DNA from: Candidatus Thalassarchaeaceae archaeon
GTDB taxonomy: Archaea > Thermoplasmatota > Poseidoniia > Poseidoniales > Thalassarchaeaceae
Assembly: GCA_030747675.1 (NCBI GenBank)
Contig: JASLKH010000056.1
Coordinates: 1 to 48,521 of the forward strand
Length of the DNA stretch: 48,521 nucleotides
Reading direction: 5' to 3'
In this document: positions 29,301 to 46,056 of the stretch, piece after piece
Layout of the letters: the number at the start of each line of letters is the position of its first letter
Numbering within the stretch: the first letter of the stretch is position 1
Program-made: the position numbers and the translations under genes
Notes under the pieces: generated by a model
Database searches by the model: none
Told to the model about the DNA's origin: nothing
The model's input: only the letters and a program-made list of their open reading frames with translations

Positions 29301-29742
29301 AGATGATAATTGGGAAAAAGCAATTTCAAACCAAGTAGTTTCTGAAAAACGAGCAAAAGTTCTTCGAAATTACAACACATGGTCCCCTGGAGATGTAGAA
29401 CAACTTTCCACTGAGGCAAGTGCTTACAATAAATGTGTAGAAGAATTTCTTGTATCCCAATCGCCTATGTACCAGCGGATCACAGATTACAAATCTAGTA
29501 TGAATAAGAATACATCCAAGAATAGAACATCTATTCAGCGGCAGAAAATATACCCTGAGAGTGGAGACAGAGAAATTATGCGGGTAGGGCGCGCACTCTC
29601 TAATCAATCTATATGGGGCATAGGGTCGATACTTGTTGCCACGCGTGATTCGGACTTCACAGTAGGTTCAAAGATGCTAGAAGATAAGCTAGGATTTGGT
29701 GTGATACGAAAACTGGATGACCTGAATCAGAGGCTTAGGTAA
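26386..29742 (+). CDS. Giant helical-solenoid protein with C-terminal PIN nuclease domain
   Basis: An 1118-residue protein with a TTG start preceded by AGGAGA. Residues 1-50 are helical; 58-75 is an RGG-like basic linker (RPRGPRGRGRSGNRN). About 100-870 is a long alpha-solenoid of HEAT/TPR-like helix pairs with no obvious motif. Residues 890-1118 are a PIN domain: Asp896 in VLIDTNLLIDAI, Glu951 in IVISELIART, Asp1061 in SGDREIMRVGRAL and Asp1088/Asp1090 in VATRDSDF, so all four acidic metal-ligand positions appear filled. This suggests a Mg/Mn-dependent endoribonuclease held by a large binding scaffold. Substrate and context are unknown. It is not a standard toxin-size VapC; no antitoxin gene is adjacent. 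Confidence 0.85.
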   Translation: MEDKLQECLNMVTNKADLSKLRKSAAYDLLDKPWVGLLEFVLSKDAQLETSGDKKSSQRPRGPRGRGRSGNRNPFVALLEPTSALITSDAPPGYRLTALLVQRSLSSNRWKPEWDNDIEKLRDTCKSGIHPVWSEMAQKSHIISELMSYPTKKPKARQGNIKSWVEGAKIDPNNNEAVIGWLNAPNPFNLNSEVEQAIQRIAKDIMKNRASEKHLLALEKLEGNPSLIRAIIHTNISKEAAIPELEKIVAEDNDVQSVAQNILEITQLRNGNTSYWKACYSVKGDDPLSVAMRNQSWKNIPDNASLSVLELQEGIEAQEGPIDPALEWALFVALIGDKLFKEADELVSGISVIDKSRLPHILKFLSNYNSPKLVERLTEEIHKFNHEEIIEIMNSDVRNTLRVSAALELQKEGGDPWVEHQNLALDIVGQAGNASQIGTILRKIDNSAEKHPYLTLLVYHLLDASAKEDLREWATSSRVISITTLAKGSVNDPNTASNNLIKILEGAPSEIAPIHACLDPSGIKAFNQCRRALMDEGDGLVAKNLLDELENSVKNSGMKPIEENLFIAVITDLRFNRVLNLLENGKKEDVAVAETSLNTLIGKTPRMRIMGEARQAILEYGLSIPALSDWHRENIPSSPWHRLILAFIDVRDDKQLSAARGLRDSSRIDIFSYEERVRLARRALILFAHAGEWRLAVEMLENPHQSALKSALTNQFQLYLHVCNEQSKGRSGPALEHILRSIKREEEYDYENPEGETEKRTRTTYPSDELDSMFNYPNIHGLPKEPWQGRIRAALNGLTDNRRSPMSLLQSRFRNILTDKGTVSEIEAIAKEAAELDPITGLMMFERAINSGQYLNEKKPLLRSQKAVYSLHQEQIPIKSRMKFRHLQLKPMVLIDTNLLIDAIKEEIHRELGNETGSITYQGGSTFHRKLYSKATKKEIECYIPSIVISELIARTKSPQKLRELFTQDLIEDDNWEKAISNQVVSEKRAKVLRNYNTWSPGDVEQLSTEASAYNKCVEEFLVSQSPMYQRITDYKSSMNKNTSKNRTSIQRQKIYPESGDREIMRVGRALSNQSIWGIGSILVATRDSDFTVGSKMLEDKLGFGVIRKLDDLNQRLR

Positions 29743-30041
29743 GCCAATAAACTAAAACTGTTAAAATCAATTAATTACAGTTAATTAAAAAAAAAAGTAA
29801 TTAATTTCAATTAATTTAATTATGGTGGAATATATCTCCAAAACCCGACACCCTGGTCGACTAAGCCGAATTGATTGATTCTAGAGGGTTTTTCCAAATG
29901 GACTCTAAAAACCCGATCCAAACGAGTGGGTCAACAGCTACACCGAAACTATCTCAAAATATGTAATTAATTGAAATTAATTCAATTATTCCGAATAATA
30001 TCCGAATTAAATATAAGATGTGCCTTGTACGCACACATTGT
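29743..30041 (+). promoter_or_regulatory. AT-rich control region with three near-palindromic elements and a TATA box
   Basis: Element A is at 29769-29788, B at 29797-29822, C at 29963-29988; all share the core AATTAATTNNANTTAATT. B and C agree at 23 of 26 positions. C lies just upstream of a clear TATA box (TTAAATATAA, 30007-30016). The TATA position places transcription start close to the ATG at 30042 and so decides that start over the ATG at 30018. No credible gene lies in the 275 bases. An A-run at 29787-29796 may belong to the upstream gene's 3' end. Confidence 0.7.
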
Positions 30042-31016
30042 ATGGAGACAGCCAAACCAATCCCATCTTCATTTGTCACACGCTTGATGGATGAGGCAAA
30101 ACAAGTAGGTTTGAGCACAGACGAATACTGCAGACTCTTGTTGAACAACGAATCCTTTTACAAACAAAACACCACAACATTTGAAACCGGATCAAACCCG
30201 TTTAAACAACTCAAAGGAAAACAACTCAATCCATCAATCCTAAGCGAAACTATTGACGCCCACCCCTTTACAGAAAATGCATTGGCCGGACATATCAACC
30301 GACTCCTACCTCTCAAAGTAGGGTGCAGGATATTATGGTCAATGATTGATGATTCAGGCATAGGACCAACTCCACGCCAATTTCGTTCAACCATTGCATC
30401 AAAAGCCCATGCATTCAGAATTTTTCTGAAAGGAACGGATGAAAACCAAGCCCGCCCTAGAGGGGATCGCTTACACTCTTCATTCCCAACAAGTAGTGAT
30501 GCTGCTGTGAATAGATTCCTCAACCAATACATGCTTCGAAGAACAGGTACAGGAAACAAATACCCGACAGGAGCGTTGCACGACTTCGGACTTATTGCAA
30601 TATCAGATTCGGGAACGGTACAATTCACAGAGACAGGTCGTAAATTCACTCTTCTTCTGAACCCAGTTATTGATGAAGGAAATTTCCGAGGCGCATCATT
30701 TTCTGCTGATGAACAAGTTCTAATTTTGTCTCAAGTGCGAAGTGAAATGAATCGGGAATGGAAATTTATGCGCCATATCCTAGATGGAATACATCTTGGT
30801 TCAAACACTCCAACATCGCTTCTTTCTAGAATATCTCGCCGTTATGGCCCCGGTACAAAGGCCGATTGGAGCAACTCCGTAATGCCCCACATGCGCAGCG
30901 GTGTATTGGGTAGAATGCAAGCACTTGGTCTAATCAAACGCACATTCACAGAAAACCGAGTTGAGTACAGAGTAACACCTCTTGCACTCGTAATTCTTGA
31001 AGAGGACATGGCTTAA
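30042..31016 (+). CDS. Putative winged-helix DNA-binding regulator heading the archaellum-linked cluster
   Basis: A 324-residue soluble protein (METAKPIPSS). An amphipathic N-terminal helix pair (SSFVTRLMDEAKQVGLSTDE) is followed by a mixed domain with two winged-helix-like ends: ALHDFGLIAISDSGTVQFTE (about residues 180-205) and GRMQALGLIKRTFTENRVEY (about 285-305), each of the form L--LGLI-R------Y-VT/T--G. Tandem wings of this kind are common in archaeal transcription factors. It is the first gene after the operator-like repeats and the TATA box, and starts the long same-strand cluster. A role as a regulator is inferred, not proven. The start is chosen from the TATA spacing. Confidence 0.6.
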   Translation: METAKPIPSSFVTRLMDEAKQVGLSTDEYCRLLLNNESFYKQNTTTFETGSNPFKQLKGKQLNPSILSETIDAHPFTENALAGHINRLLPLKVGCRILWSMIDDSGIGPTPRQFRSTIASKAHAFRIFLKGTDENQARPRGDRLHSSFPTSSDAAVNRFLNQYMLRRTGTGNKYPTGALHDFGLIAISDSGTVQFTETGRKFTLLLNPVIDEGNFRGASFSADEQVLILSQVRSEMNREWKFMRHILDGIHLGSNTPTSLLSRISRRYGPGTKADWSNSVMPHMRSGVLGRMQALGLIKRTFTENRVEYRVTPLALVILEEDMA

Positions 31017-31028
31017 GGGGGTGGGAAT

Positions 31029-31919
31029 TTGATTGCAATACCATGGTCCGCCGCAATATTATTTTCCATATTAGCTGCAATGATCACCTTCGGCCTCTAT
31101 GCAATTCTTTCTGCTGAATCAAATCCCGCTCATGCGGCACGCCTCACCAATGTTCGCGCCTCACCGGTTGCAGCTCCAGCATCCCGTCCTCAGCGATTTG
31201 CATTGGAGGACGAAATGGTTAGAATGAGCAAACCCAAAATTGAGACGCGAGAGTCCGACACCCTTTCTGATCACGATTCTGCTGAGTTGGTCGAAGAAGC
31301 CTCTGTCGAATATGAGGATGAAGATTCCCAACCAATCGAGGATATTCCAGAAATAGAGGAAGAAGCAGAATCCGAGGAAACCCCTGGCACCAATTCCCTT
31401 GATAGTGAATTTTTACTTGAAGAAATTGGGAAGGAATGGCAAATTAAAGCCGGAAGCGGACAATCAGCAACAACATTGGATGAGGCGACCGGAGAGGCAG
31501 TACGAGAATCCGACACATCCGAATTCGAAGAACGCCTTAACCGAGAAGGAGCTCAAACAGGAAAGGTCCAAGTGAGCCTTATTTGGGATAATACGAATGA
31601 TTTGGACCTCAGTGTAGTTTGCCCTTCAGGTGAAAGAATATCTTTTGATCACAAAACGTCACGTTGCGGAGGTAGGTTGGACATTGATATGAACGAATCC
31701 CCCACTAGTGAACAACCCGTTGAGAATATTTATTGGTCAAAGGATTCCGCTCCGAAAGGAGATTACAAGGTCTTTGTCGAACACTTTGAACATCATGCTG
31801 AAGAGGATTTAACAAATTTCCGAATTCTTGTAAACGATGGGGACAATAATAAGGAATTCAAGGGCGAAATTACTAACGACGAACCACCACAATTAGTGTG
31901 TGTTTTTTCTGTTGAATGA
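31029..31919 (+). CDS. Membrane-anchored protein with C-terminal YfaP/DUF2135-like domain
   Basis: A 296-residue protein with a TTG start 4-5 bases after a GGGGGTGGG ribosome binding site. Residues 5-27 are a transmembrane helix (WSAAILFSILAAMITFGLYA), followed by a long acidic disordered linker (about 60-165). Residues 175-296 are a beta domain of the YfaP/DUF2135 type: VSLIWDNTNDLDLSVVCPSG, then SRCGGRLDIDMNESP, ENIYWSKDSAPKGDYKVFVE and a His pair. It looks like an exported adhesion or recognition domain held on a flexible stalk. The same domain occurs twice in the gene after next. Gap to the upstream gene is 12 bp, so co-transcription is likely. Confidence 0.75.
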   Translation: MIAIPWSAAILFSILAAMITFGLYAILSAESNPAHAARLTNVRASPVAAPASRPQRFALEDEMVRMSKPKIETRESDTLSDHDSAELVEEASVEYEDEDSQPIEDIPEIEEEAESEETPGTNSLDSEFLLEEIGKEWQIKAGSGQSATTLDEATGEAVRESDTSEFEERLNREGAQTGKVQVSLIWDNTNDLDLSVVCPSGERISFDHKTSRCGGRLDIDMNESPTSEQPVENIYWSKDSAPKGDYKVFVEHFEHHAEEDLTNFRILVNDGDNNKEFKGEITNDEPPQLVCVFSVE

Positions 31920-31928
31920 GGGGTATAA

Positions 31929-32375
31929 ATGCGTTTGACTCGAAAATCACGCCGCAGACAGCGGCTAATTAATCGGGCAAAAACCATCGAGGCGTTGCAA
32001 ACAATAGCCAACGACATTCAAGCTGCATTTGATAACCGTGAAATCACTCACAACGAGGCCGTGATTTTAGGTAATCAAATTCAAAGATGCGCTGATTTGA
32101 TAGATGGCACACAACTGGTGTACGCAATTTCAGATCGCGACGCATACCGCCGATTAATTGAAGTATATCTCGATGACGGAATTCTATCAAGAACAGAACA
32201 AATATTACTTTGGGACGAACGCAGGAAACTGGGTATTTCAGAGGACGCCCACACCCGATTACTTGTGGCATTAATCGCTCGTTACCAGCGGCAAGGCCGA
32301 CCAGTTCATGTTCAAAATGCACCCCGCTCTATCCCAAAATCGGGCGCCGATGAAAATACAGGAGGGAGCAATTAG
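31929..32375 (+). CDS. Small basic helical protein, TerB-like
   Basis: A 148-residue protein, strongly basic at both ends (MRLTRKSRRRQRLINRAK). Two helix pairs with acidic-turn connections (NREITHNEAVILGNQIQRC and DDGILSRTEQILLWDERRKL) fit a TerB-like or EF-hand-like helical unit and resemble the repeat units of the next gene. GAGGGG lies 5 bases before the ATG. It ends directly at the following start (0 bp). Function unknown; the position inside the archaellum-linked cluster suggests it partners with the repeat protein. Confidence 0.6.
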   Translation: MRLTRKSRRRQRLINRAKTIEALQTIANDIQAAFDNREITHNEAVILGNQIQRCADLIDGTQLVYAISDRDAYRRLIEVYLDDGILSRTEQILLWDERRKLGISEDAHTRLLVALIARYQRQGRPVHVQNAPRSIPKSGADENTGGSN

Positions 32376-35300
32376 TTGGCAATTGAAGTAGGGTATATCG
32401 TTGCAGCCTTAATTGCAGGTGTACTAATATGGCAAGCCACATCACAATTGGGGTCAAAGCGCCGCACCCGCACATCGTTATTGGAAACCTTCGCGATAGA
32501 AGACATTGCGGTTGCCGATGAACCATTCACGCCACGTAAAGATTCAAACGCATCTTTACTCACACCCCGAATTGAATATCAAGAAGAATTAATCCCATTC
32601 GGATCAACACATTCTTTGGAAAAAGCACCAGATATAAAGAACGAAAAAGAAAGTAACTTAGAGGGAGAGGTAACCACACTAAAAGAAGTCGCCATCGAAC
32701 GTTATTCAGTTAGAGAGAGATCGAATGAGAAAGTTTCTGAATGTAAGGAACTTATCCAATTAATCAAAGATTTACGAGAGCAATACAATGTAGAAATAGA
32801 TGATGAATTCTTAGAAGGGCCATTAGAAGGACTAACATTAGCAGAGTTGGACATTCGCCAATCATCTCTCTTGGAAGTTTATGATAAATTATACCAACAT
32901 TCCTTCCAAGAGCAAGTTCAAAAAGTTCGTCGGGAGCAGCTTGAATTCGAATCAAAAGTTGGTGAAAAAGAAAACCAAACAGCGGCTGGAAAACTGGCAA
33001 ACCTCGCCGATGAATTATCCAATTTACGTCGCGAAGAAGAATTGTATCGCCAAATTCAATCTTCAAAAACAACCAAAACTCTTGAATCATTAGATATGTC
33101 TAACCTCGATGTAGATACAACAAAACGCATCACGGCACACTACGACTTTTACTATTCTAGATTAAGTGAAATAGAACGACTACGCACAGAATCCGAAAGA
33201 TACGAATTCCATACCAACGCCATTCTAGATTGTGATGAAAAAGAGAAGTTACTGACAATGGTCTTTGACGGCGTCAACACTAGGATGCGAGTTGAATTGG
33301 AAGAGCGGAGAGAAAAACGGGCAATAGCACTTGATTTACGCGATAAGATGGAGCAACAAAATGCCAACGCGGCAGAACTTCGCCTAGAAATCGAAACAGC
33401 AGTAAGCACAACAGCAATCGATCAAATACAAATCACAGGAGTTAGCCCCCTGCAAGAAAATGAACTCACCGAATTACTCCATGTTACGCGTCAGCAACTG
33501 GCATATTCAGAACTTGAAACTATAATACAGAATTGCGAATATGTTTTGGAACTAGATGCAATACACTTTGAAGGGGTGAATGAAGAACAACTCACAGCCC
33601 TCATTGAGATAAGAGCCAACAAAAGAGCCGAACTGGTCGAGTTTGCTAAACTGGAGAAATTTGAGGAACAATACACTGCATATCTCGACTCAATGCCTGG
33701 GATAGATGACATTGAGGAACTTTTAGGGATAGAAATTGAAAACGTGTCAGAATCTCAAGCCCAGGAATTAGAGAATCTCCGACTTTCTAGATTGGATCAT
33801 TTAGAAGAAATTGAGAGGATACGAATTGAACAAGAACAAGCAGAAAACTTTGAAAATCTCAGGAAACAACTTGAATCAGCGAAGACCTCTAATGAGGTTG
33901 AAGCAATTGTAATCGAAGGGGTCAACGAAGATCAAGAATTAGCGCTGACCGAGATTAAATCAGAAGTATTCGAGATTCTGTTAGAAGATGAAAAGGTAAC
34001 AGAATATGTTGAAAAGGCAGAAAAAGCAAGCAAATCCCCTCCCTCTCCGGATAATTTTGATTTCGACACCGAGTCAACATTTAGGACACGCGTTAAAACA
34101 TTAGGTGCAAAGGATGGCCTCCTTCGCCTTAGTTTACTCTGGAACAATAAGAATGATTTGGACCTAATTGTTCGAACTTCAAAAGGAGAAATTATTCACA
34201 GAGGTTCTCGAAATTCATCTTGTGGTGGAATATTGGATTTAGAAATGAATGCCAAACCAGAGATGAGTTCAGCGATGGAGAACATTGTGTGGCCCAACGG
34301 AAAGATCCCCCCCGAAGGAACATACAACATTTTCATTTGGCATCGGAACCGCCACCAAAAATTGCGAAGAACAGATCCAACAGAATATACACTACGAGCA
34401 AAAGTCGGTGCAGAGTATTTCCAATATGAGGGAAAAATTAGTTATGGGGACAATTTACGATTAATCGCCTCAATTGAAGTCCCCGAATCGAATACAATGC
34501 AAAATAGAATGGTCACTGAAGGCAATTTGTATCAAGAATTACGAAGTACTGCAAAATCAGCAAAGAAGTTGAAAGAATTTCCAGAAATAGACGATGAACT
34601 CTCATCATTACACAAAGTGATGTTAGAGCGAATCATTGAGAAAAAGACATCAGAAATCAAAGAAAAAGCGGAAAGACGCCGTGCAGAAAAACAAGCAGCA
34701 GAATATTCACGCATAATACTGGAAATCGAATCATCAATGAATTTGGATGAATTATCAGCAGTTCGATATGACAAGGCTTCCGATGAAGAAATAGTCACTA
34801 TTGAAAAATTGATTACTAAGCGAAGTAAAGCAATCGAATCAGGCTTAAAGAAGCAAGAAATTATGGAGATGAAACAAAGAATCCAGGATTTCAAAACCCA
34901 AATTAATGAAGCCAAAACACTCGTTGATCTTTCATCAATAATTTTCGATGACATCGAAAAAAGAGACGCCATTACTCTACAAAGACTACGTACAGCTAGA
35001 CGAAAAACTCTCCAAAAGAAACTTTCAACAGACGATGTCGAGAAAGATAAACAAGATCGCTTACACAAGGCTTTGAATGAAGCCTACAGTCGTGGAGGCC
35101 TGCAACCATTACCTGCCGATGAGGGCCGACCATCGGCATTCAATGAGCGCCTAGAGGACGCCAATGCAGGCATCGGAGATGTCCAAATATCACTCTTGTG
35201 GGACAACAAAAATGACTTCAATGTTCTAGTGATTACCCCCTCACAAGAAATTATTCATCCTCGGAATCGAAAGTCATCAGATGGAGGATATCAGGATATT

Positions 35301-35543
35301 GAAATGAATCAGAAAGGCGAATCAAAGGAACCTATTGAGAATATTTTCTGGCCTGAAGGCAAGGCCCCAAAAGGCCTTTATTACATCTACATACATTTCT
35401 ATAAAGAGCATCAATTATTCAGAAAAATTGACATTTCTGAATGCCGAGTCCAAATCTTATATCAAGGACAACGGACAGAATATGCTGCACAGATGTCACT
35501 TTCTAATAAATTACAATTCATTACAATGCTTAAGGTGGAATAA
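32376..35543 (+). CDS. Large helical-repeat protein with two YfaP/DUF2135-like domains
   Basis: A 1055-residue protein starting with TTG, preceded by GGAGGGAG at 7 bases. An N-terminal transmembrane helix (about 4-20) is followed by acidic linker and about 450 residues of repeated helical units with a recurring I-x-I/F-x-GV turn (IQITGVSPLQENELTELL, IHFEGVNEEQLTALIEIR, IVIEGVNEDQELALTEIK). A first YfaP-like domain lies at about 575-705 (LSLLWNNKNDLDLIV, SSCGGILDLEM). A second helical block of three units follows, and a second YfaP-like domain at about 930-1055 (ISLLWDNKNDFNVLV, SSDGGYQDIEM), which has lost the LDL and Cys features. Probable membrane-attached, exported scaffold. Confidence 0.75.
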   Translation: MAIEVGYIVAALIAGVLIWQATSQLGSKRRTRTSLLETFAIEDIAVADEPFTPRKDSNASLLTPRIEYQEELIPFGSTHSLEKAPDIKNEKESNLEGEVTTLKEVAIERYSVRERSNEKVSECKELIQLIKDLREQYNVEIDDEFLEGPLEGLTLAELDIRQSSLLEVYDKLYQHSFQEQVQKVRREQLEFESKVGEKENQTAAGKLANLADELSNLRREEELYRQIQSSKTTKTLESLDMSNLDVDTTKRITAHYDFYYSRLSEIERLRTESERYEFHTNAILDCDEKEKLLTMVFDGVNTRMRVELEERREKRAIALDLRDKMEQQNANAAELRLEIETAVSTTAIDQIQITGVSPLQENELTELLHVTRQQLAYSELETIIQNCEYVLELDAIHFEGVNEEQLTALIEIRANKRAELVEFAKLEKFEEQYTAYLDSMPGIDDIEELLGIEIENVSESQAQELENLRLSRLDHLEEIERIRIEQEQAENFENLRKQLESAKTSNEVEAIVIEGVNEDQELALTEIKSEVFEILLEDEKVTEYVEKAEKASKSPPSPDNFDFDTESTFRTRVKTLGAKDGLLRLSLLWNNKNDLDLIVRTSKGEIIHRGSRNSSCGGILDLEMNAKPEMSSAMENIVWPNGKIPPEGTYNIFIWHRNRHQKLRRTDPTEYTLRAKVGAEYFQYEGKISYGDNLRLIASIEVPESNTMQNRMVTEGNLYQELRSTAKSAKKLKEFPEIDDELSSLHKVMLERIIEKKTSEIKEKAERRRAEKQAAEYSRIILEIESSMNLDELSAVRYDKASDEEIVTIEKLITKRSKAIESGLKKQEIMEMKQRIQDFKTQINEAKTLVDLSSIIFDDIEKRDAITLQRLRTARRKTLQKKLSTDDVEKDKQDRLHKALNEAYSRGGLQPLPADEGRPSAFNERLEDANAGIGDVQISLLWDNKNDFNVLVITPSQEIIHPRNRKSSDGGYQDIEMNQKGESKEPIENIFWPEGKAPKGLYYIYIHFYKEHQLFRKIDISECRVQILYQGQRTEYAAQMSLSNKLQFITMLKVE

Positions 35544-35545
35544 CA

Positions 35546-38500
35546 ATGACAGGAAACACAGAAAAAACGTCGAAAGTGGCACCCACCCTCCTTATTTTGA
35601 TTATGCTAATCCAAATTTTATCCCCATTCCAAATCCCCAATAATTTGCAATCCGAGCAAGAAATATCAGATTCTACATTAGGGCGAACAGCCTACCCTGA
35701 CATCAATATTACAGCAATTATTTGGATTGGACCCTCATATTATTGCATTCTATGTGTTATTGATGTGCTGGCACCTGTTGAACAAGAAGTCATGATAAAA
35801 TTCCGCAACGATGGTTTACTGAAGGCTGACAGCACTCATTTCCGATTCGATGTTAATTCAGTAGAAATAGCCAATCATACATTTTTCAATGTCATGCCTG
35901 GGGAGGAACAAAACTACATTTTCACATGGACCCCAACTTTAGGTAATGGCCAAACATTCCAAGCATATGCAGCAATAACACCCGTGGGCGCAGACCCAGA
36001 TATGTCCAATAATCAAAAAATCAAGGGTTTCAACTCTTACTTTGATCAAAACGATGGAGATATTTACTCCGATACATTACCACCGGGAGGAACCAGGTTA
36101 CCAGGGGAACCATCAAGTGTTTCTGTTGGTGTTAGAAATGCAGGAAACACAGAAAGTGAAGTTACGACATTAATCTCCCTCACCCCCAGTGGGGGGGGGC
36201 CACCGACTGAATTTTTCTCACAACCGATCAATTTGTCTGCTGGAAGTGTGGCAGAACCAGCTCAAGTAACGTTATCCTCAGTGATGATTGATGGTACAAA
36301 TCTCTCAGGTAGTTATATGATGGCAGGCAATGTTTACTTCAATAGTACACTAGCCCCTCAGGCAGTCGTATCAATTGTCCCGAGAATAGTCACCTTTAGT
36401 CCATATCGGGCCACCATAGTGTCCCCAAGTGACCGTGCAGTCGAACCAGGAAACTCAGCCACCCTGACATTCATAGTTCAAAACATAGGCGAATCTGCAG
36501 ACCGATTCAATATTTCAGTACACTCAGTGCAAGGCTGGTTTGACTCTTCATCCCCGTCCGCACCCGCTTCACAAACTCCAATTATATCACCGGGCTCTTC
36601 AGCCGTAATCCTAGTCCCTGTATCAGTCCCATTAAACACAAATCGTTCAGAATCAGATCTAATTACTGTGGAAATTGAGAGTGAAGGCGCAGTACCATCG
36701 TACAATGTTTCAGGATCCTCTGCTGTTATGGCAGGAGACATATTACAAGGAACTCTAAACACATCAGCGTGGAATGTGCAAATAATTCCGGGTCAAACAG
36801 AATCGATACAATATACGTTAAACAACACAGGAACATCTCCATCATTCTTTGAACTTGATACAGGCTTTGCTCAGGTTGCACCCGGTTGGTCAGCCACAAT
36901 TGAACCTGAAACAACACCCTACATGACTGTTGGAGCATCCATTGTAGTTACAGTCACAGTATCCCCTCCTGCTCTTTCATTACCATTTGATCCAACAACG
37001 AAACTCGCTGAAGGCAATTCCTTGACATTGTGGACAACTGTCCAACCCACATTACAAGACCAAACTGCAGGCGCCCCAAATGTTCAGGAAACAATTCTTG
37101 AAGTCCAACCTGCAGTTATGATTGAATTTATCACAGATGAAACAGATCTAATAGTTGACATATCTGAATTAAATTCAGGTGCGATTGGAAAGCACATCTA
37201 TTTCGATATGGAACTTCGTCATAATTTAATGAGTAATTTAAGCTCTTTAGTTGACATAGAATTGCGAACAGCCCCTAGTGCTTTTGACCCCTCGAGAAGC
37301 GGAGTAGGCTCACAAGAAATTTTGAGATGGAATAGTTCTGTGACACCGAATAATGCAACAATGAATCCAGGTGATACACAGGCCCTCTTGGCTTCAGCAC
37401 TGGGGCCATTCGAAAGTCCCCTTGCCGGAATCATAAGCATCGATGTTATTGCCAATTTGACATTATCTGGAGCCTTAAGTGGTATTCAGGCCCCAGAAAC
37501 AACTCTAACATGGAGTATTTCCATTCCTGAATTAACTGAGGTGGAAATCGGAATCCCAGAACCCACAATAGTTGTCCCTGGAATCTCCGGCACAGCATCA
37601 GTAAACATCAACAATACAGGGAACCACAAGACAAATCTGTCATACACAGTAGAAGGTCCGGCAGGTTGGACAGTTTCAACTTCTCCAACGGAAGTTACAG
37701 GGTTGGGCTCAACATTCGATACATACCCTTCTATTGGAACCGATAATACAACTGTTTCAGTGACAGCAATAGCCCCTGCTCTTTGGCGTGCCGATGATGT
37801 ACCAGACATAACCCTGACAGTTTTGGATGAAAATGGTGAAAATGTCACCCAAGAAAATATACCTTTCTTGGTCCAAGAATTGATCGAAGCCGTACTTTTA
37901 CCCGATGAAGCAGCAGCCTATCTCCCAGTTAATGAAACAGAAATTATCCTGTTGAAAGTAACAAATTCAGGTAATAGTCATCAAGAATTTTCTATGATGG
38001 TTGAGGATACCTTAGCAGACATAAACTTACGAGTCCTCTCAAATTCAACGATGTCACTAGATCCCGGTGAAGATGCCTTCGTTGATATCGAAGTTGAATC
38101 AGGCCAATTCGCACGAGCCGATGAAAACCATAGTTCAGTTGCAACTCTATATCACAACGGTGTCGGCATCGCTCAAACCTCAATCTTTGTAGAAGTATTA
38201 CCTAATCACGACATCGTATTCGAACACCATCCTGATTACTCAGTTACGCCCGGCAAGGAAGCACCAATCGCATTCAATATTACAAACAACGGAAATCTCG
38301 ATGAGAATATCAATTTCTCAGCAATTCTTCCAGAAGGTTGGAGTGCAGAAATAAGCCCTGAAAACATGACAATATCAGCCGGCACCCAGGAAGTAAAAAC
38401 AGTCAATGTAGTCGTTAATGTACCACCAATGTCAAGTGGTTCAGGCCCTGAAGCTGACAGTACTCATGAAATGCTTTTCACTGCTACAAACGCTACCGAC

Positions 38501-40330
38501 AATGTAATTGCTGGAACTACAGTAGTGAATTTTACGACAGTCCCCATTTTCGATATTGAAGCTGAGAACTTCCCCGATTTAATTGAGATGTTACCAGGTG
38601 AGCAACGAACGTTCGAGGTCGAGATTTCAAACGCAGGAAACCAAAATGTGTCCTTAGACATTGATTGCACAGCAGGACCCCCCTTCGATCGCTGGTTAGT
38701 TTCAAATTGTGATCAAAGCAATTATTCTCTCGACATTGGCGAAACACGAAGGATCAACTTTACAGTTGAAAATTCTGCATTGGTGCCCTACAATGGCGAT
38801 GAGGCCGATTTAACTTTGACATTTTCACCACAAGACAACCAATCAGGAGATAGAACAATATCTTCAGAATTAGAAGTCAAAAGAATGTGGACGGAAGAAG
38901 AGTACATGGTCACAGGAGACGGAGATTCTGGAGGGTATCCAATAGATGTCAATTGGATGCATGTCCAATCCATCGGACAAACAGCCGACGTACGTCCGAT
39001 TGATTACGAATTAAAACTCATTAATTCAACCCGTTTGATTAACACCTCATTGTATAATGGAAACCTCAATTGGGGCTTTGAATTGATTACCAGTAATGGC
39101 GCCCAAACATTCAATCCAAATTCTATTCCAACAAATTTCTCCCTAGGTGCGGCCCAGCCATTACAATTGAACAATTTACAATTTAGGCTAGACCTCCCAC
39201 CATCGGCAATTACCCCACCTGGAGATGGCTGGGTTTTGGAATTTGAACTCATCCACGCAGAAGAAGGAAATGCCACCTCAACCACAGTATTTCTTAACGT
39301 GACAGTTGATAATTGGGCAGACCCATCTATTGTATCAATTTTAATCAATGATGAATCCTTTTTCGAAGAATCTAATTCGGGGACAATAATTGCCACGATT
39401 GAAAATAATGGCAACGCTCCAACAGTCTCCAATCTGACTGCAGAACTAACTTGCGATCCAGGGATTACAATTCTCAGCCCCCCAGTTAAATCAAACATCA
39501 ATCTAACAGCCCATCAAAGCAACTATCCATTGGAATGGAGCATCAAATCAGATGCATTAAATTGGTGGCAATCGAGTCAAAATGTGGATTGCAAAGTAAC
39601 ACTTTCTTCGAATGGGGAAATGATAGGGGATCTTGAATCAAACAATGTACTCGAATCACCAATCGAATTGAATTCATGGTCCCTTCCTCTATACATATTG
39701 GTTCCATTAATTAGCGCCCTCTTCATACTGTCTAGCCGCCTCTTAAGAAAGGCAAAAGAGGACGAAAGATCATTGATGTTGAGTGCATACTCGGGTTCAA
39801 TATTACTTGGGTGCGCAACCCAATTCGGACTGGGTTCCGGACCAAACCTTGCCCTTGCAGCAACATCGCTAATTTGGACCGCTTTGATAACTTTGCATTC
39901 AGCAGGATTTGAATTCCCTGCCGTCTTATCCGATCGGCAAAACCATCTTCGAGGAAGCGAATCAATTATTGAAGATCACGATGCTGAAATTGATCGAATC
40001 ATCAATCAACTCAGAGTAAAAATATCATTCGCCCCAATTGGTTTCATCCTCATTGCACTCTTGATGCCTTCTGACATCGCATGGACACTTGAGAATATAG
40101 GATCCAGCGCCCTATATTTGTTCATGAGTGCCTTGATTGTTGAATTGACAATTCGTAGAACATTAGCAACATGGCTTTCTATCTTCGATCAATTAACAGT
40201 AGTAGAAATTGAGTCCCAAGATCTTCTCCAGCTACTAGGAACACCATCTACAGATTTACGTAGAATTACAATAGGACAACGATGGGGACAATCCCATGAT
40301 GTCAATGTGGAGGTGGAAGGCAATGTCTGA
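35546..40330 (+). CDS. Giant exported Ig-like-repeat protein with polytopic C-terminus
   Basis: A 1594-residue protein. Residues 13-31 form a signal or anchor helix (PTLLILIMLIQILSPFQIP). The long extracellular part consists of beta-sandwich units of the CARDB/NEW3-like type, with recurring patterns such as VGVRNAGNTESEVTTLISL, NNTGTSPSFFELDTGFAQ and NNGNLDENINFSAILPEGWS, many N-x-S/T sites and GW-turns before a proline. Near residue 1378 five hydrophobic segments begin (LPLYILVPLISALFILSSRL onwards) and the C-terminal end is cytoplasmic. Possible surface filament base, adhesin or membrane anchor. It overlaps the next gene by 8 bases. The link to the archaellum is only positional. Confidence 0.75.
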   Translation: MTGNTEKTSKVAPTLLILIMLIQILSPFQIPNNLQSEQEISDSTLGRTAYPDINITAIIWIGPSYYCILCVIDVLAPVEQEVMIKFRNDGLLKADSTHFRFDVNSVEIANHTFFNVMPGEEQNYIFTWTPTLGNGQTFQAYAAITPVGADPDMSNNQKIKGFNSYFDQNDGDIYSDTLPPGGTRLPGEPSSVSVGVRNAGNTESEVTTLISLTPSGGGPPTEFFSQPINLSAGSVAEPAQVTLSSVMIDGTNLSGSYMMAGNVYFNSTLAPQAVVSIVPRIVTFSPYRATIVSPSDRAVEPGNSATLTFIVQNIGESADRFNISVHSVQGWFDSSSPSAPASQTPIISPGSSAVILVPVSVPLNTNRSESDLITVEIESEGAVPSYNVSGSSAVMAGDILQGTLNTSAWNVQIIPGQTESIQYTLNNTGTSPSFFELDTGFAQVAPGWSATIEPETTPYMTVGASIVVTVTVSPPALSLPFDPTTKLAEGNSLTLWTTVQPTLQDQTAGAPNVQETILEVQPAVMIEFITDETDLIVDISELNSGAIGKHIYFDMELRHNLMSNLSSLVDIELRTAPSAFDPSRSGVGSQEILRWNSSVTPNNATMNPGDTQALLASALGPFESPLAGIISIDVIANLTLSGALSGIQAPETTLTWSISIPELTEVEIGIPEPTIVVPGISGTASVNINNTGNHKTNLSYTVEGPAGWTVSTSPTEVTGLGSTFDTYPSIGTDNTTVSVTAIAPALWRADDVPDITLTVLDENGENVTQENIPFLVQELIEAVLLPDEAAAYLPVNETEIILLKVTNSGNSHQEFSMMVEDTLADINLRVLSNSTMSLDPGEDAFVDIEVESGQFARADENHSSVATLYHNGVGIAQTSIFVEVLPNHDIVFEHHPDYSVTPGKEAPIAFNITNNGNLDENINFSAILPEGWSAEISPENMTISAGTQEVKTVNVVVNVPPMSSGSGPEADSTHEMLFTATNATDNVIAGTTVVNFTTVPIFDIEAENFPDLIEMLPGEQRTFEVEISNAGNQNVSLDIDCTAGPPFDRWLVSNCDQSNYSLDIGETRRINFTVENSALVPYNGDEADLTLTFSPQDNQSGDRTISSELEVKRMWTEEEYMVTGDGDSGGYPIDVNWMHVQSIGQTADVRPIDYELKLINSTRLINTSLYNGNLNWGFELITSNGAQTFNPNSIPTNFSLGAAQPLQLNNLQFRLDLPPSAITPPGDGWVLEFELIHAEEGNATSTTVFLNVTVDNWADPSIVSILINDESFFEESNSGTIIATIENNGNAPTVSNLTAELTCDPGITILSPPVKSNINLTAHQSNYPLEWSIKSDALNWWQSSQNVDCKVTLSSNGEMIGDLESNNVLESPIELNSWSLPLYILVPLISALFILSSRLLRKAKEDERSLMLSAYSGSILLGCATQFGLGSGPNLALAATSLIWTALITLHSAGFEFPAVLSDRQNHLRGSESIIEDHDAEIDRIINQLRVKISFAPIGFILIALLMPSDIAWTLENIGSSALYLFMSALIVELTIRRTLATWLSIFDQLTVVEIESQDLLQLLGTPSTDLRRITIGQRWGQSHDVNVEVEGNV

Positions 40331-41186
40331 ACAGGTTTTACCTCCAACTCAAGAGAGTTACAGAGCCCAAGTTACGAGATTAAATTTAATTCTTGACGAG
40401 CACATTAGAATGGTCCAAGAATCAATTGTAGACAAAGATGCTAGGGATGCTAGGAAGAGTATTCAGCAAGCGCGTTTAGACATTGATAACCTACGTTTGC
40501 AAGTCGGTAGAATGCATCGGGCGATTGGAATGTTGCACACACTTATGCGAGACCGCTCAACAACTGAAACTGAATTGGTTGACATATTGTTGACAATGAA
40601 AACAGCTGAAACCCTAATCATGCGAGGTGCCTTTGATGAATCTGCATTACAACTCGAACGACTAGCAGAACATCTATTGGCAAACAGTGCTGCTTTGAAT
40701 CCCTTTATTTTCTATGAATTTTGGATGGGAGTTGAAGCAAGGTGGAGTTCAGATTCAGAAAGTGGAAATTTATTGGTGAGGATAGAAAACACAAGCGAAA
40801 ACATCATTCCTGGATTCAATATTAAAGCCCCAGTTCCTCCAAATTGGAGAGCATCCCCAGACTCTCAATTTACAGGCACATTGAATCCTGGAGACATTTC
40901 GGATTTGGCATTTGAAATAACCCCGTCTGCAATGGCAGCAATTAGAGAAGTAGGCGCCCCAGGGAGCCTCCAAAAAAGTCTAACAATACAAACAGGATAT
41001 ACACTTTCAAACCATGGACTAACCATGGATTGTAGAGTAAAAAATACATCACAAGAGACCCTATATGACACATTATTAATGCCTTGGATTCCACCTGGTT
41101 GGAAAACACCTTCATGGCCATTTATCCGTAATTTAGATCCGAGTTCCACCGAATTGGTATCAATTTCATTGGAGTTGATCAATTGA
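40323..41186 (+). CDS. Helical plus NEW3-like protein ahead of the archaellin
   Basis: A 287-residue protein from ATG 40323 (MSEQVLPPTQESY), 5 bases after GGAGGTGG; the frame open to 40296 lies inside the previous gene. Residues 1-130 are a long helical hairpin or coiled coil (LDEHIRMVQESIVDKDARDA and onward). Residues 150-287 form a beta-sandwich like the Ig repeats of the giant protein upstream (LLVRIENTSENIIPGFNIKA, then PPGWKTPSWPF). No signal peptide, so the helical part may be cytoplasmic and bind the giant protein's tail. Unknown function; immediately precedes the archaellin. Confidence 0.65.
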   Translation: MSEQVLPPTQESYRAQVTRLNLILDEHIRMVQESIVDKDARDARKSIQQARLDIDNLRLQVGRMHRAIGMLHTLMRDRSTTETELVDILLTMKTAETLIMRGAFDESALQLERLAEHLLANSAALNPFIFYEFWMGVEARWSSDSESGNLLVRIENTSENIIPGFNIKAPVPPNWRASPDSQFTGTLNPGDISDLAFEITPSAMAAIREVGAPGSLQKSLTIQTGYTLSNHGLTMDCRVKNTSQETLYDTLLMPWIPPGWKTPSWPFIRNLDPSSTELVSISLELIN

Positions 41187-41271: not shown

Positions 41272-41850
41272 ATGAGACAAAAAGAACAAGCCCTGAAAGA
41301 GAATGGAATGGCCGCGATCGGAATCGGTGCAATGATCATATTCATTGCCCTGATTTTAGTAGCCGCAGTAGCATCGACAATTATCATCAAAACAGCTGAA
41401 GAACTTCAACAGAGAGCTGAAGCAACCGGCGACGATACACGTGACGAAATTAGTGGTAAAATCCAACTGGTTGGCGCATATGTTAGTGATGATAACGCTG
41501 CAGGAAACGCTGCAGATGAAATCACACTAATCGTGCAACTCAGTGCCGGTTCAGATACAACACTTCTTTCTAATATGGATTGGTTCATCGTTTGTGATGG
41601 TGGTGCAGGTACTTCAGATGTCAACACCGATGACTTTGACGGCGTTGCAACTGATCTTGACGGTACACTACTCACGGTCGGTTCGTCAGTCAATGCCGGT
41701 GAAACATTCCTAGTTCCAATTGACACCTCAACAAACTGTCAACCCGGTGTTGGTGACGAACAAGAACTTCGTGTAATCATCGATGGTGGTGGCGAAACTT
41801 ACGCCCAACTACATTACAATAGCGTAGACAACGGCGACACAATCGTCTGA
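41272..41850 (+). CDS. flaB: Archaellin (archaellum filament subunit)
   Basis: A 192-residue archaellin. It has the class III signal peptide (KENG followed by MAAIGIGAMIIFIALILVAA, cleaved by an FlaK/PibD-type peptidase after the Gly), then the filament-core helix and an Asp/Gly-rich globular domain (DDNAAGNAADEITLIVQLSA). The signature is direct; the family is part of the archaeal type-IV-pilin-like motility filament. Only one archaellin gene is seen. The peptidase gene is not in the window. The downstream stem-loop and its own promoter point to separate, strong expression. Confidence 0.93.
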   Translation: MRQKEQALKENGMAAIGIGAMIIFIALILVAAVASTIIIKTAEELQQRAEATGDDTRDEISGKIQLVGAYVSDDNAAGNAADEITLIVQLSAGSDTTLLSNMDWFIVCDGGAGTSDVNTDDFDGVATDLDGTLLTVGSSVNAGETFLVPIDTSTNCQPGVGDEQELRVIIDGGGETYAQLHYNSVDNGDTIV

Positions 41851-41885: not shown

Positions 41886-41909
41886 TGTGAGATATGTAGA
41901 GTGGATAGT

Positions 41910-42722
41910 ATGGGTATATTCAGCAAACTTTTCGGCGGGAAATCCGAAACAGAACTCGTTGAGTCTGAATCATCTCGTCGATTAGAGGCATTGTCAGGAC
42001 ATTACATAGATTCAACTTTAATTCCCGATGAAGCAGTCCCCATCGAAGAGGACGCTTGGACATTAGCACCATCTCCTACTCGTGCAAGAGTGGGTACAAC
42101 TGGCGCAGAACCAATGATTAAAGAGGAACCAGCACCCCAAGGGGTTGCTGCAATTGACACAAAAGAGATTGAACAAAAAATGGACAACCGCTTCGATAGA
42201 ATAGAAGCGACCATGGCAATGATGGATGCCAGATTAACCCAGATTCGTGAAACTACAGAAACATCCCACATATTGCCTACAGACACATTAGTTACTGCAG
42301 AAGAAGACTCAGAAGAAGACTCAGAAGGGCAACAATCTGACTCAGACGAGGGAGAATCGACATCCATCAGTCAAACAGTGAGTCTATTGGATTTGTATGA
42401 AGACCGAGTGGCAGACCTCAATCCCTTTCTTGAACGAAGACCAGGTGATCAAGATGCAGGACTATCGGTAACTACGAGCGAAATTGCCGCGTTATTATTG
42501 GATAATTTGTCTGGACCAGCCACCACTACATTTCTTGTCAAAGCGAAGGAAAGTGGAACAATTAGTGCCGCTGAAACCAAAGAATTGGGAGGCCTCATCC
42601 AACTCGCCGATCCCGCCGTTAACAACAACGGTGGTGAGCATTTACCACATAGAGAATTACTAATGTTCAATGCAATGATTGAAGCTTGGCGCGTTGCTAA
42701 AACCAATGATGAGGGGGCCTGA
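41910..42722 (+). CDS. Archaellum-locus protein in the ArlCDE position
   Basis: A 270-residue soluble protein from ATG 41910 (MGIFSKLFGGKSETEL); an in-frame GTG three codons earlier is possible. Residues 1-80 are a basic-to-acidic linker; about 80-115 is a helical coiled segment (KEIEQKMDNRFDRIEATMAM); 130-160 is an acidic Glu/Ser stretch; 160-260 is a helical domain (DLYEDRVADLNPFLERRPGD onwards, then SEIAALLLDNLSGPA). It takes the place of ArlC/D/E between archaellin and FlaF, but I do not see the standard ArlD/E domain. It may be a divergent cytosolic scaffold. Confidence 0.55.
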   Translation: MGIFSKLFGGKSETELVESESSRRLEALSGHYIDSTLIPDEAVPIEEDAWTLAPSPTRARVGTTGAEPMIKEEPAPQGVAAIDTKEIEQKMDNRFDRIEATMAMMDARLTQIRETTETSHILPTDTLVTAEEDSEEDSEGQQSDSDEGESTSISQTVSLLDLYEDRVADLNPFLERRPGDQDAGLSVTTSEIAALLLDNLSGPATTTFLVKAKESGTISAAETKELGGLIQLADPAVNNNGGEHLPHRELLMFNAMIEAWRVAKTNDEGA

Positions 42723-42725
42723 AAT

Positions 42726-43127
42726 GTGGGTGGCTCCGTTAGTATCGCAGCATTGATTGTTGGAACCACTCTGCTAGGGATTTTTGCCCTAGCGTCACTA
42801 TCACTTTCAGAAAGTACAAAACAGGCAGCGGAAGCAGGAAGCGAGTCAATCCATGAACCTGAAATTAGATTGATTAATGCTTCAGAGAGTAGTGGTATTG
42901 TGAATGTAAATATCACAAACACAGGGTCTGAAACAATTTCTTTCGATCACCTTTGGCTCAGCATTGATGGGGATGCCCCCATTCGTACAAGCAGCCATTA
43001 CAACCTCACTCTGTCTTTATTCCCTGGTGAAACTCAACATCTTACACTGACTGGAACAGGAGCCAACTCCCCTTCTAGAATTTCAGCAGCTTGTTTCGGG
43101 GCCCATTCAGCGGTTGCATTCACATGA
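42726..43127 (+). CDS. flaF: Archaellum protein FlaF (stator/S-layer-facing)
   Basis: A 133-residue protein starting at GTG 42726. One N-terminal helix (IAALIVGTTLLGIFALASLS) is followed by a beta-sandwich (IRLINASESSGIVNVNITNT, then TISFDHLWLSIDG), which is the FlaF layout of a membrane anchor with an extracellular domain that contacts the cell surface. Length, position and partner FlaG fit. GAGGGGG is upstream of the GTG. FlaF/FlaG form the stator-like complex of the archaellum. Confidence 0.85.
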   Translation: MGGSVSIAALIVGTTLLGIFALASLSLSESTKQAAEAGSESIHEPEIRLINASESSGIVNVNITNTGSETISFDHLWLSIDGDAPIRTSSHYNLTLSLFPGETQHLTLTGTGANSPSRISAACFGAHSAVAFT

Positions 43128-43136
43128 GGTGTTATG

Positions 43137-43622
43137 ATGGCTGATGGTGGTGCCAGTGAATTGGTGATGTTGGTAACGGGTTTACTGACGGCAGGAATTG
43201 TTGCGAGTTTACTAGTAGCATCATGGGGTAGTTTAGCAGAGATTGTTGGCGATACTCAAACCCAAATCCAAGTCGACTCCAAGACCCGGGCATCATTAGC
43301 CAGTGACCCAATGCAGATTGCATGGGATCAGGCGACATGCAATCTCACAATCCATATCCAAAATTCAGGGGAACTCCGCTTGAAGATGGATAATATTGGT
43401 GCAATCGTCAATGGGACACCAACATCTGTTTCAGGTTCCCAATTAATTGGTTCTGCAATTGCATGGACAAGTGGTGAAGTAGCAGAATTCTATCTATGCC
43501 CTACAGGTTTGAATTTGGCAACAGGACAGGAGACACCCTTGATTATCATTGTTCAAAGTGAGGAATATAGTGGAGATATTTCCGGCAAGCATTCCTTTTC
43601 AGAGGTGATTAGAATTGCCTGA
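43137..43622 (+). CDS. flaG: Archaellum protein FlaG
   Basis: A 161-residue protein (MADGGASELVMLVTG); the ATG at 43137 is 5 bases after GAGGTG, whereas the ATG at 43134 is too close. One transmembrane helix (about 8-30) precedes a beta-rich domain (CNLTIHIQNSGELRLKMDNI). This architecture, the position after FlaF and the overlap with FlaH support FlaG, the partner of FlaF in the stator-like complex. Sequence conservation is low, as usual. Confidence 0.83.
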   Translation: MADGGASELVMLVTGLLTAGIVASLLVASWGSLAEIVGDTQTQIQVDSKTRASLASDPMQIAWDQATCNLTIHIQNSGELRLKMDNIGAIVNGTPTSVSGSQLIGSAIAWTSGEVAEFYLCPTGLNLATGQETPLIIIVQSEEYSGDISGKHSFSEVIRIA

Positions 43623-44310
43623 AGATATTGGTTTTGATTTTGAGTTAGAAACGGATAGCCTTTCGGATAGTTTGGGAAGATATCTCCCAAGAAGATCATT
43701 GTATGTGGTATCAGGAGCAATTGGTGCCGGTAAGAGTTTAATTTCTCAGCGATTAGCTTACGGTTTAGTTGCACATGGTGCGAAGTTGGCTTTAGTTACA
43801 ACCGAACTAACAACCAGAGGATGGCTTGAACAAGTAGCCAGCCTTGGATACCCACTAAGCGACGCAGCTGAATCCGGACAATTCACATTATTATCCCGAT
43901 TTGGAGTTATTTCCGACGAAGTTGAAGAGCAAGTGGGAATCGAAGAAATACTCGAGTCAAAACCCCTTCAATCTGCGGATATTTCAATCATAGATTGCGC
44001 CTCAACAATCTTACAAAACTCAGAAGTATCAGCAGATGAATTACTGAGTAAGTTACGAAACTTTTGTTCGAAGAACCGGTCATTGATGTTACTCATAGAC
44101 CCCGATGAAATGGCCCCTGAAGTCACGCGTGCTTTGACATCATCAGCCGAAGTAGTCATTGAAATGAGAACTTCTGAAATCGGAGGGGGGTTGAATCGCA
44201 CAGTCGCAGTCACCCGATTCCTTCGTGCTGCAGGCCCAGTCCAACCTCGCATCGGCTGGAGAGTAGAACCAGGGATGGGCTTCATCGTAGACATCACTGC
44301 GGTCAGTTAG
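43615..44310 (+). CDS. flaH: Archaellum ATPase-regulator FlaH (KaiC-like)
   Basis: A 231-residue RecA/KaiC-like protein. Start TTG at 43615 with an excellent GAGGTGATT element 4 bases upstream, overlapping FlaG by 8 bases. Walker A is GAIGAGKSLI (residues 36-45), and the Walker B-like strand is ADISIIDCAST. The protein binds ATP, forms a ring under the FlaI motor and helps switch between assembly and rotation. Length normal. Confidence 0.9.
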   Translation: MPEDIGFDFELETDSLSDSLGRYLPRRSLYVVSGAIGAGKSLISQRLAYGLVAHGAKLALVTTELTTRGWLEQVASLGYPLSDAAESGQFTLLSRFGVISDEVEEQVGIEEILESKPLQSADISIIDCASTILQNSEVSADELLSKLRNFCSKNRSLMLLIDPDEMAPEVTRALTSSAEVVIEMRTSEIGGGLNRTVAVTRFLRAAGPVQPRIGWRVEPGMGFIVDITAVS

Positions 44311-44320
44311 GGTGAGATAA

Positions 44321-46048
44321 ATGGAAGTCGAGGAAGAGGGCGAAGACGGCATATTTGCCAGAGGCGATCTTGACGGAGTTATGAATCGGTATGATCACGT
44401 ACGAACATGGGTTGAGGATTTTGAAGGGAAGCATGGGGCACGCCCATTCTATTATGGAGATCTAGATAGGGATGCAAGAAAGGATCCAATCAATTTAATC
44501 TATCATCTAAGGGGCCCATTATTCGCTCATGTTTACCGGCCACCCGATGACCAAGAGGGTGCAGGAAGCACCCTTTGGTTTGCGATCGAACCACATTTGA
44601 CCGAAGAAGAGGAAAATATGAAGCAAGAAATTGTTGAAAGGTTACTGAGAGAGGCCCCTAGTGCCCCATCATTCTCCTCAGATGCCGAATTTGAATCGAT
44701 GCTTGAAGGCATGATTGCCAAACATACCATAGTTTCAAGCGAATCAGCATCACTCACGGATGCTACAACATCAGTTCGCAGATTTTTGGGTTTTGGTGAA
44801 CCAAAAATTTCTGTAAATGAAAAGCAGTTAGAGCGTCTGACTTACACAATTATCCGCGATCTTGTTCGATCAGGTCCTTTAGAGTCCCTTCTCTCAGATG
44901 AAATGCTTGAAGATATTCACGCAATCGGTTTGAGATATATCAGCATGGATCACAAAGTGTTTGGAATGGTAACATCAAATATACGATTTCGAGATAGAGA
45001 AATGCTTGAAAGATATCTCCGAGCAATGTCGGAACGAATTGGACGACCTGTGTCCGACAGTAAACCAATTATCGATGGGGCACTTTTGGATGGTAGCAGA
45101 ATCAATATTGTTTATTCCGATGACGTATCGATGTTGGGATCCTCTTTTACCATTCGTAAATTCGCAGAAGAGACAATTTCAATCACTCAATTGATTCAAT
45201 GGGGAACAATGTCTGCAGAAGTTGCTGCATATGTGTGGCTGTGCTTGGAGAACGGAATGTCCTTACTGGTGTCTGGAGAGACAGCATCTGGTAAAACAAC
45301 CACTTTGAATGCCATTCTCCCTTTCATTGACCACAATGTCAAAATTTACTCGGCTGAAGACACACCTGAAGTTAAAGTTCGACATAGATTATGGCAACGT
45401 TTAGTGACGAGAGATTCAAAAAACGAGGACTCCCGAGTAGAAATGTTCGATCTCCTGAAAGCAGCTTTGAGAAGTCGACCCAGATACATCATTATTGGTG
45501 AGATTCGAGGAGCAGAAGGCGCCACAGCATTCCAAGCGATGCAAACAGGTCACCCAGTGATAGCTACTTTCCACGCATCATCAATTGTGAAAATGATTCA
45601 ACGTTTCACTGGCGACCCCATCAATGTACCAATGAGATTCTTTGACAATCTAAACTTTGCAATTTTCCAAGAAGTGGTTGAAGCACCAGGTGGAGGAATT
45701 GCTCGTAGAATTACTGGAATTGATGAGGTGATTGGTTACAACAAGCATGCAGACGGTGTCCTAACCAGAGGCATGTTTGACTGGGACCCAGTTAGAGATA
45801 AGCACTATTTCCGTGGGATGTTCCAATCACATTTGATGGAAAATAAGATGGCTGCTTTGATGGGATTCGAGAATAAGCGTGATATTTACGAAGAGATGGC
45901 AAGAAGAAAAGAAGCCCTCCAAAGAATGGTTGATCGCAACCTTACTCACTATGATGATGTGTTCGATTTGCTTGATGTTTATTACCAGCAGGATTGGGAA
46001 GCCTTCTCCAAGGCAATCGATATTTGGACACCAATTGGAAGCGAATGA
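44321..46048 (+). CDS. flaI: Archaellum motor ATPase FlaI
   Basis: A 575-residue secretion/rotation ATPase of the type IV pilus/archaellum family. An N-terminal domain (about 1-200) is followed by the core with Walker A SGETASGKTTTLNAIL (around residue 325), the Asp box (IYSAEDTPEVKV), Walker B PRYIIIGEIRGAEG and the His box HPVIATFHASSIVKM. GGGTGAG lies 6 bases before the ATG. The enzyme drives both filament assembly and rotation with FlaJ. The stop overlaps or nearly touches the FlaJ start. Confidence 0.97.
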   Translation: MEVEEEGEDGIFARGDLDGVMNRYDHVRTWVEDFEGKHGARPFYYGDLDRDARKDPINLIYHLRGPLFAHVYRPPDDQEGAGSTLWFAIEPHLTEEEENMKQEIVERLLREAPSAPSFSSDAEFESMLEGMIAKHTIVSSESASLTDATTSVRRFLGFGEPKISVNEKQLERLTYTIIRDLVRSGPLESLLSDEMLEDIHAIGLRYISMDHKVFGMVTSNIRFRDREMLERYLRAMSERIGRPVSDSKPIIDGALLDGSRINIVYSDDVSMLGSSFTIRKFAEETISITQLIQWGTMSAEVAAYVWLCLENGMSLLVSGETASGKTTTLNAILPFIDHNVKIYSAEDTPEVKVRHRLWQRLVTRDSKNEDSRVEMFDLLKAALRSRPRYIIIGEIRGAEGATAFQAMQTGHPVIATFHASSIVKMIQRFTGDPINVPMRFFDNLNFAIFQEVVEAPGGGIARRITGIDEVIGYNKHADGVLTRGMFDWDPVRDKHYFRGMFQSHLMENKMAALMGFENKRDIYEEMARRKEALQRMVDRNLTHYDDVFDLLDVYYQQDWEAFSKAIDIWTPIGSE

Positions 46049-46056
46049 GGGATTAT

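Follow-up and report, generated by a model that had tools for sequence, protein, structure and literature searches.

Archaea use the archaellum for swimming and attachment. In Thermoproteota its motor is scaffolded by ArlX, a membrane protein with a cytosolic ring, and in Euryarchaeota ArlX is replaced by ArlCDE, which is tied to chemotaxis (PMC8978795, PMC12448462). The Thaumarchaeota equivalent of ArlX has yet to be identified (PMC8978795). A motility operon with several conserved unannotated proteins has been published for the archaea of Marine Group II (MGII) (PMC6336850), a group without identified chemotaxis genes (PMC6461757). Here we describe two genes of this operon found in a 48,521-nucleotide stretch of DNA (below, the window) that is the entire contig JASLKH010000056.1 of a 1.68 Mb, 78% complete assembly (GCA_030747675.1) from an uncultured ocean archaeon of the Candidatus Thalassarchaeaceae (Marine Group IIb). 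The genes, A (31029..31919) and B (32376..35543), encode proteins of 296 and 1055 residues that carry one and two domains, respectively, resembling the YfaP (DUF2135) protein of Escherichia coli; these and all other features given are on the + strand of the window. The three domain copies are probably parts of the archaellum that nobody has described. Genes A and B, like those of ArlX and ArlCDE, accompany the archaellum motor genes, but their products showed no sequence similarity to those scaffold families and gave no FlaC, FlaDE or ArlX match in profile libraries, which may lack an ArlX model.

Results

The YfaP-like genes lie in the archaellum operon

That genes A and B belong to the same tight operon as the archaellum genes arlB, arlF, arlG, arlH, arlI and arlJ is well supported. 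The junctions of the cluster are mostly overlaps or gaps of 0-12 bases, and the gene order (332-residue protein, A, 148-residue protein, B, 1594-residue protein, 296-residue protein, arlB, 273-residue protein, arlF, arlG, arlH, arlI, arlJ) is kept within the genus as far as the contigs reach. The arl core genes are present together. Archaellin (ArlB/FlaB, 41272..41850) matched Pfam Arch_flagellin at 1e-24, above the cut-off, and the motor ATPase ArlI (44321..46048) matched its NCBIfam model at 1e-202 and was alone in exceeding the NCBIfam equivalog cut-off. The NCBIfam matches of the ArlF-like (42726..43127; 5e-8) and ArlG-like (43134..43622; 8e-14) stator proteins, the KaiC-like ArlH (43615..44310; 1e-46) and the platform protein ArlJ (45994..47850; 1e-111) were clear though below cut-off. 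PADLOC did not link A or B to defence.

The linkage of the YfaP-like domain with the archaellum is also well supported across genomes. Among 39 relatives, the domain and ArlI were both present in 32 (two of them counted from ArlI fragments at contig edges) and both absent from the other 7, and these seven also lacked archaellin and, save for weak local matches, the 1594-residue protein. In an order-wide comparison of 293 genomes the same 16 of the 22 genera were positive for the domain and for ArlI, and among the matches listed for 293 genomes of the phylum, all fell in Thalassarchaeaceae and Poseidoniaceae (MGIIa). Within family f1 we counted 46 genomes with both, 7 with the domain only, 3 with ArlI only and at most 93 with neither (this last figure assumes that unlisted negatives belong to f1), all uncorrected for relatedness; the 10 discordant genomes are mostly incomplete. 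Genera g1 and g4 each contain some genomes that have both the domain and ArlI and some that have neither. If YfaP-like genes engaged in unrelated work merely shared the locus by chance, their being unlinked from the archaellum genes in MGIIa would be readily explained, but the tight operon, the kept gene order and the near-perfect co-occurrence, extending to those two genera, make such a coincidence highly improbable.

Three homologous domains, the third altered but maintained

A profile search placed the domains at 31560..31916 (A1), 34116..34481 (B2) and 35175..35540 (B3). The three are real and homologous, as they can be aligned end to end with pairwise identities of 33-41% and scores 37-41 standard deviations over shuffled sequence. 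In the order A1, B2 and B3 the first motif reads WDN-TNDLDL, WNN-KNDLDL and WDN-KNDFNV, the second SRCGGRLDIDM, SSCGGILDLEM and SSDGGYQDIEM, and the third ENIYW, ENIVW and ENIFW. The translations of the open reading frames and the domain alignment thus bear out the motifs listed in the first-pass annotation of this DNA (W[DN]N-NDLDL, SxCGG and ENI-W, with NDFNVLV and SSDGGYQDIEM in the third domain). The His-rich strand described there as final is followed by three further strands in the AlphaFold2 model, which for A1 is an eight-stranded all-beta domain (predicted local distance difference test score, 87.7). A motif found immediately 5' of A1 (31506-31560), F-x-x-R-L-x-x-x-x-A-x-x-G, is common to A and to relatives from Herpetosiphon (L077) and Verrucomicrobia (L133), and hence the true domain start may be about 15 residues earlier. 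B3 has a looser version of this motif.

The third domain had been called degenerate in that annotation, with loss of an aspartate pair and of the cysteine but apparent retention of the fold, and one active and one structural copy had been raised as a possibility. Retention of the fold agrees with the AlphaFold2 model, in which the strand order of B3 is that of B2, and the loss is partial: the first Asp of the ND-x-D motif is retained in A1, B2 and B3, and in B3 the second Asp is replaced by Asn and the Cys by Asp. B3 does deviate at two otherwise nearly invariant positions, since NDLD and S-x-CGG stand there in almost every other member of the family. In the wider family the cysteine is not found throughout, being absent from E. 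coli YfaP and from one Verrucomicrobia relative. However, the changes are fixed throughout the genus, with each of the 14 sampled genus copies reading NDFN[LIV] and S-x-DGG. Across these copies the length of the two-domain fragment of B is 485-486 residues, and the alignment is nearly gap-free. Mean within-genus identity is 75% for B3 versus 77% for B2, and the ratio of nonsynonymous to synonymous substitution rates (dN/dS, Nei-Gojobori) is about 0.02-0.2 in all three domains, although some pairs approach saturation at synonymous sites. Given this conservation and strong purifying selection we reject degeneration; B3 is a specialised, maintained copy. Since neither a catalytic nor a ligand-binding activity is known for A1, B2 or B3, a division into one active domain and one degenerate structural copy has no evidence behind it and is very unlikely.

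Gene duplication, which the same annotation had suggested, accounts for part of the set. In a maximum-likelihood tree having very long branches for E. coli YfaP and the Verrucomicrobia row, and therefore unsure in its rooting, B2 and B3 each form one clade and are sisters (99/94), and thus arose by duplication inside gene B. With weaker support (84/81) the B2 plus B3 group lies nearest the MGIIa domains. The place of A1 is with bacterial sequences and the single-domain protein found in genus g7 (97/94) and not with the B domains, so simple local copying of gene A into gene B is not supported.

Relationship of the domains to YfaP, phage proteins and Ter proteins

Direct scans did not uphold the assignment to DUF2135/YfaP, which the first-pass annotation had made by eye. 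Pfam hmmscan gave no DUF2135 (PF09906) match to the window proteins A and B even at E 10, nor elsewhere in the genome, and scanned directly against Pfam and NCBIfam, A and B returned noise only. More sensitive comparisons did uphold it. Aligned together, 16 domains of the window and of its relatives matched E. coli YfaP over 108 columns (hhalign 97.4%, E 1.2e-11), 9 of the 16 domains individually matched DUF2135 at E<=1 (best 3.8e-6), and an MGIIa relative (L034:9542-10435) scored 25.8 bits, over the Pfam DUF2135 cut-off of 22 bits. When profiles of E. coli YfaP and of the two-domain fragment of B were compared, it was the third domain that aligned (E 3.2e-6). The phage protein family PHROG 1735 was matched by all 16 sampled domains (best E 1.5e-24; A1, E 1.1e-21). 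On the strength of the hhalign result, the DUF2135 matches, the MGIIa relative and PHROG 1735, we classify the domains as YfaP-like by sequence comparison, the window copies being beyond the reach of the Pfam model. The 108 columns aligned with E. coli YfaP share the core W, DLDL, P-x-GE, G-x-LD-x-D and G-x-Y-x-V. However, the E. coli protein has a signal-like N-terminus, a single domain and no anchor-plus-rod architecture, whereas A and B have an N-terminal membrane anchor and a C-terminus that is predicted to be cytosolic.

The phage proteins of PHROG families 1735 and 23228 are alike in the domain, and the best viral fold match was a protein of Cellulophaga phage phi4:1 (template modelling (TM) score 0.77), but whole-protein architecture differs; the two 676-residue phage proteins examined had no other recognised domain. 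Those two YfaP-like proteins are encoded by Brevibacillus phage Sundance and Klebsiella phage KpS11 (L155:1723-3753 and L156:1723-3753), each followed by a small overlapping open reading frame. A sequence search of the PDB found no relative, and Foldseek comparison of the A1 model with the PDB gave nothing under E 0.001, the top match being TTHA1873 (TM score 0.45).

Tellurite-resistance-type (Ter) proteins provide the main rival to a structural role in the motor, because the nearest bacterial homolog lies in a vWA protein beside kinase and PP2C phosphatase genes. TerY-like vWA proteins of Herpetosiphon and Coprothermobacterota contain an inserted YfaP-like domain that is 50-56% identical and includes the NDLDL and SxC motifs, but these are vWA fusions without archaellum genes nearby. 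In the Herpetosiphon giganteus locus (L077:4948-10282) protein kinase and PP2C-type phosphatase genes flank the TerY-like gene with its inserted domain. Triads of vWA protein, kinase and PP2C phosphatase are hypothesised to be metal-sensing phospho-switches (PMC11090510), and TerD binds Ca2+ (PMC8123226). A and B might form a membrane-anchored sensory or signalling module responding to metal or stress in the manner of Ter proteins, which would regulate the archaellum from within its operon and be no part of the motor. In keeping with this, the bacterial relative just described is the closest found (56% identical), the MGIIa genes are separate from the motor, and TerD proteins are among the best PDB fold matches of the B model: 2qng, 2kxt and 2qz7 were among its top Foldseek matches, with E-values of 0.009-0.04 only, the first two having a probability of 0.99-1.00 with a weak E of 0.009-0.02. 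W-D and DLD motifs align with TerD in the hhalign output, but the sequence profiles do not match significantly (0.6%, E 0.1), TerD was absent from the top 50 Foldseek matches of the A1 model, and we treat the model-based resemblance as a lead only. Moreover, no kinase, phosphatase or vWA protein was found among the cluster proteins scanned, and the long helical rod of B, with its rigid 486-residue spacing, suggests architecture and not sensing. We consider a sensing module rather unlikely.

Predicted membrane topology and the helical rod of protein B

Translation of A from a TTG start gives an N-terminal membrane helix predicted by hydropathy at residues 9-27 (31053..31109), an acidic linker and the single YfaP-like domain. 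Protein B, also with a TTG start, begins with a predicted membrane helix (residues 1-19, 32376..32432) followed by GSKRRTRTS, a basic KRR motif that would put this side of the helix inside, and continues with a long helical region and its two YfaP-like domains. Most A and B homologs have a membrane helix near the N-terminus, often with basic residues after it. These residues, seen in B and in many homologs, predict a cytosolic C-terminus by the positive-inside rule, and from hydropathy and charge only we infer that the domains face the cytosol. MGIIa genomes (L033, L034) carry two separate YfaP-like proteins that are also predicted to be membrane-anchored and whose genes are distant from the archaellum locus.

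The helical region of B contains seven degenerate repeats of about 35 residues each, spaced about 43-58 residues apart within each run. Five are at residues 291-537 (33246..33986) and two more lie between B2 and B3 (residues 789-880, 34740..35015). The repeats scored 20-41 bits and shuffled controls no more than 1.6 bits; the model had been seeded with six of the seven repeats but not with the other one. AlphaFold2 modelled the linker between B2 and B3 as long helices of about 40 residues.

The opposite orientation would make the domains extracellular, like the exported E. coli YfaP, where they could serve in adhesion or in anchoring the archaellum to the envelope together with the Ig-like surface protein encoded next to B. 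The signal-like sequence that starts E. coli YfaP, the Ig-like repeats of the neighbouring 1594-residue protein and the attachment role proposed for MGII archaella (PMC6461757) are consistent with this arrangement. The basic residues after the helix in B and many homologs instead place the domains inside, the nearest bacterial homologs are vWA fusions (one of them beside kinase and PP2C genes), and the cytosol is the better fit for a conserved cysteine and for a helical rod rich in Lys and Glu. We therefore regard extracellular domains as unlikely.

Other genes of the cluster

The 1594-residue surface protein (35546..40330) has a signal-like helix, Ig-like repeats (NPCBM_assoc, CARDB) and C-terminal membrane helices, according to profile scans and hydropathy, together with a choice-of-anchor T match below the cut-off. 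It is kept in nearly all archaellated relatives searched and is a candidate surface anchor of the archaellum stator. The 148-residue protein encoded between A and B (31929..32375) is 55-75% identical in relatives and gave no family match in profile scans; its position between the two YfaP-like genes is that of genus g1. The first gene of the cluster encodes a 332-residue protein that is a possible regulator (30018..31016), and a 296-residue protein conserved in the cluster precedes archaellin (40296..41186), both from profile scans and gene-order comparison. At the arlCDE position is a 273-residue protein (41901..42722) with a coil containing RFDRIEATM and a conserved C-terminal domain. Its FlaC match was sub-threshold only, and we rejected it as ArlCDE; profile scans of the cluster proteins recognised no ArlCDE. 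Upstream of the cluster an open reading frame of 1118 residues (26386-29742) lacks a significant family match and is kept in some members of the genus only.

Discussion

With no chemotaxis genes identified in MGII and a sub-threshold FlaC match only at the arlCDE position, A and B could fill a scaffold gap. We propose, with about even confidence, that A and B, anchored in the membrane, scaffold the archaellum motor from the cytosol in the role of ArlX or ArlCDE. Each protein would have a short N-terminus outside, cross the membrane once as a helix and extend into the cytosol with a C-terminal part ending in YfaP-like beta-sandwich domains, and the two would surround the ArlH/ArlI/ArlJ motor as a cytosolic collar or scaffold. 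The helix would anchor A and B, and the rod of repeated helices in B would set distance and space the domains. The three beta domains may dock onto motor parts or one another, possibly with bound metal, and B3, derived from the duplication within its gene, would be a specialised docking face rather than a dead copy.

Several observations weigh against this scaffold. The YfaP-like genes of Poseidoniaceae (MGIIa) are off the archaellum locus (in genome G024 ArlI maps to 1649 kb, the domains to 583 and 658 kb) and adjoin metabolic genes. One such gene lies beside 2-oxoacid:ferredoxin oxidoreductase and aconitase genes, and other neighbours are DUF1246/DUF1297 and tryptophan dioxygenase genes; these neighbours suggest no common function. 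Within Thalassarchaeaceae, joint loss could merely reflect physical linkage. The genus g7 genome examined lacks B and has an archaellum locus with A only, and therefore not every archaellum of the group requires B. Finally, the topology comes from a hydropathy rule, and the charge on either side of the helix of protein A is not decisive within 15 residues.

More tentatively, MGII may scaffold the archaellum motor in a third way, with YfaP-like domains that were recruited from a family of bacterial or phage type and among which the paired residue changes would have given one copy a docking or metal site of its own. The identification of such proteins in the MGII motility operon appears to be new, as among the papers on DUF2135 or YfaP in an open-access library none is about archaella by title or abstract, and no report that ArlX or ArlCDE contain YfaP-like domains was found. 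The uncharacterised YfaP/DUF2135 family thereby gains a cellular context, and for archaellum motor scaffolds outside the well-studied groups an identifiable, widespread domain family within the operon supplies named candidates.

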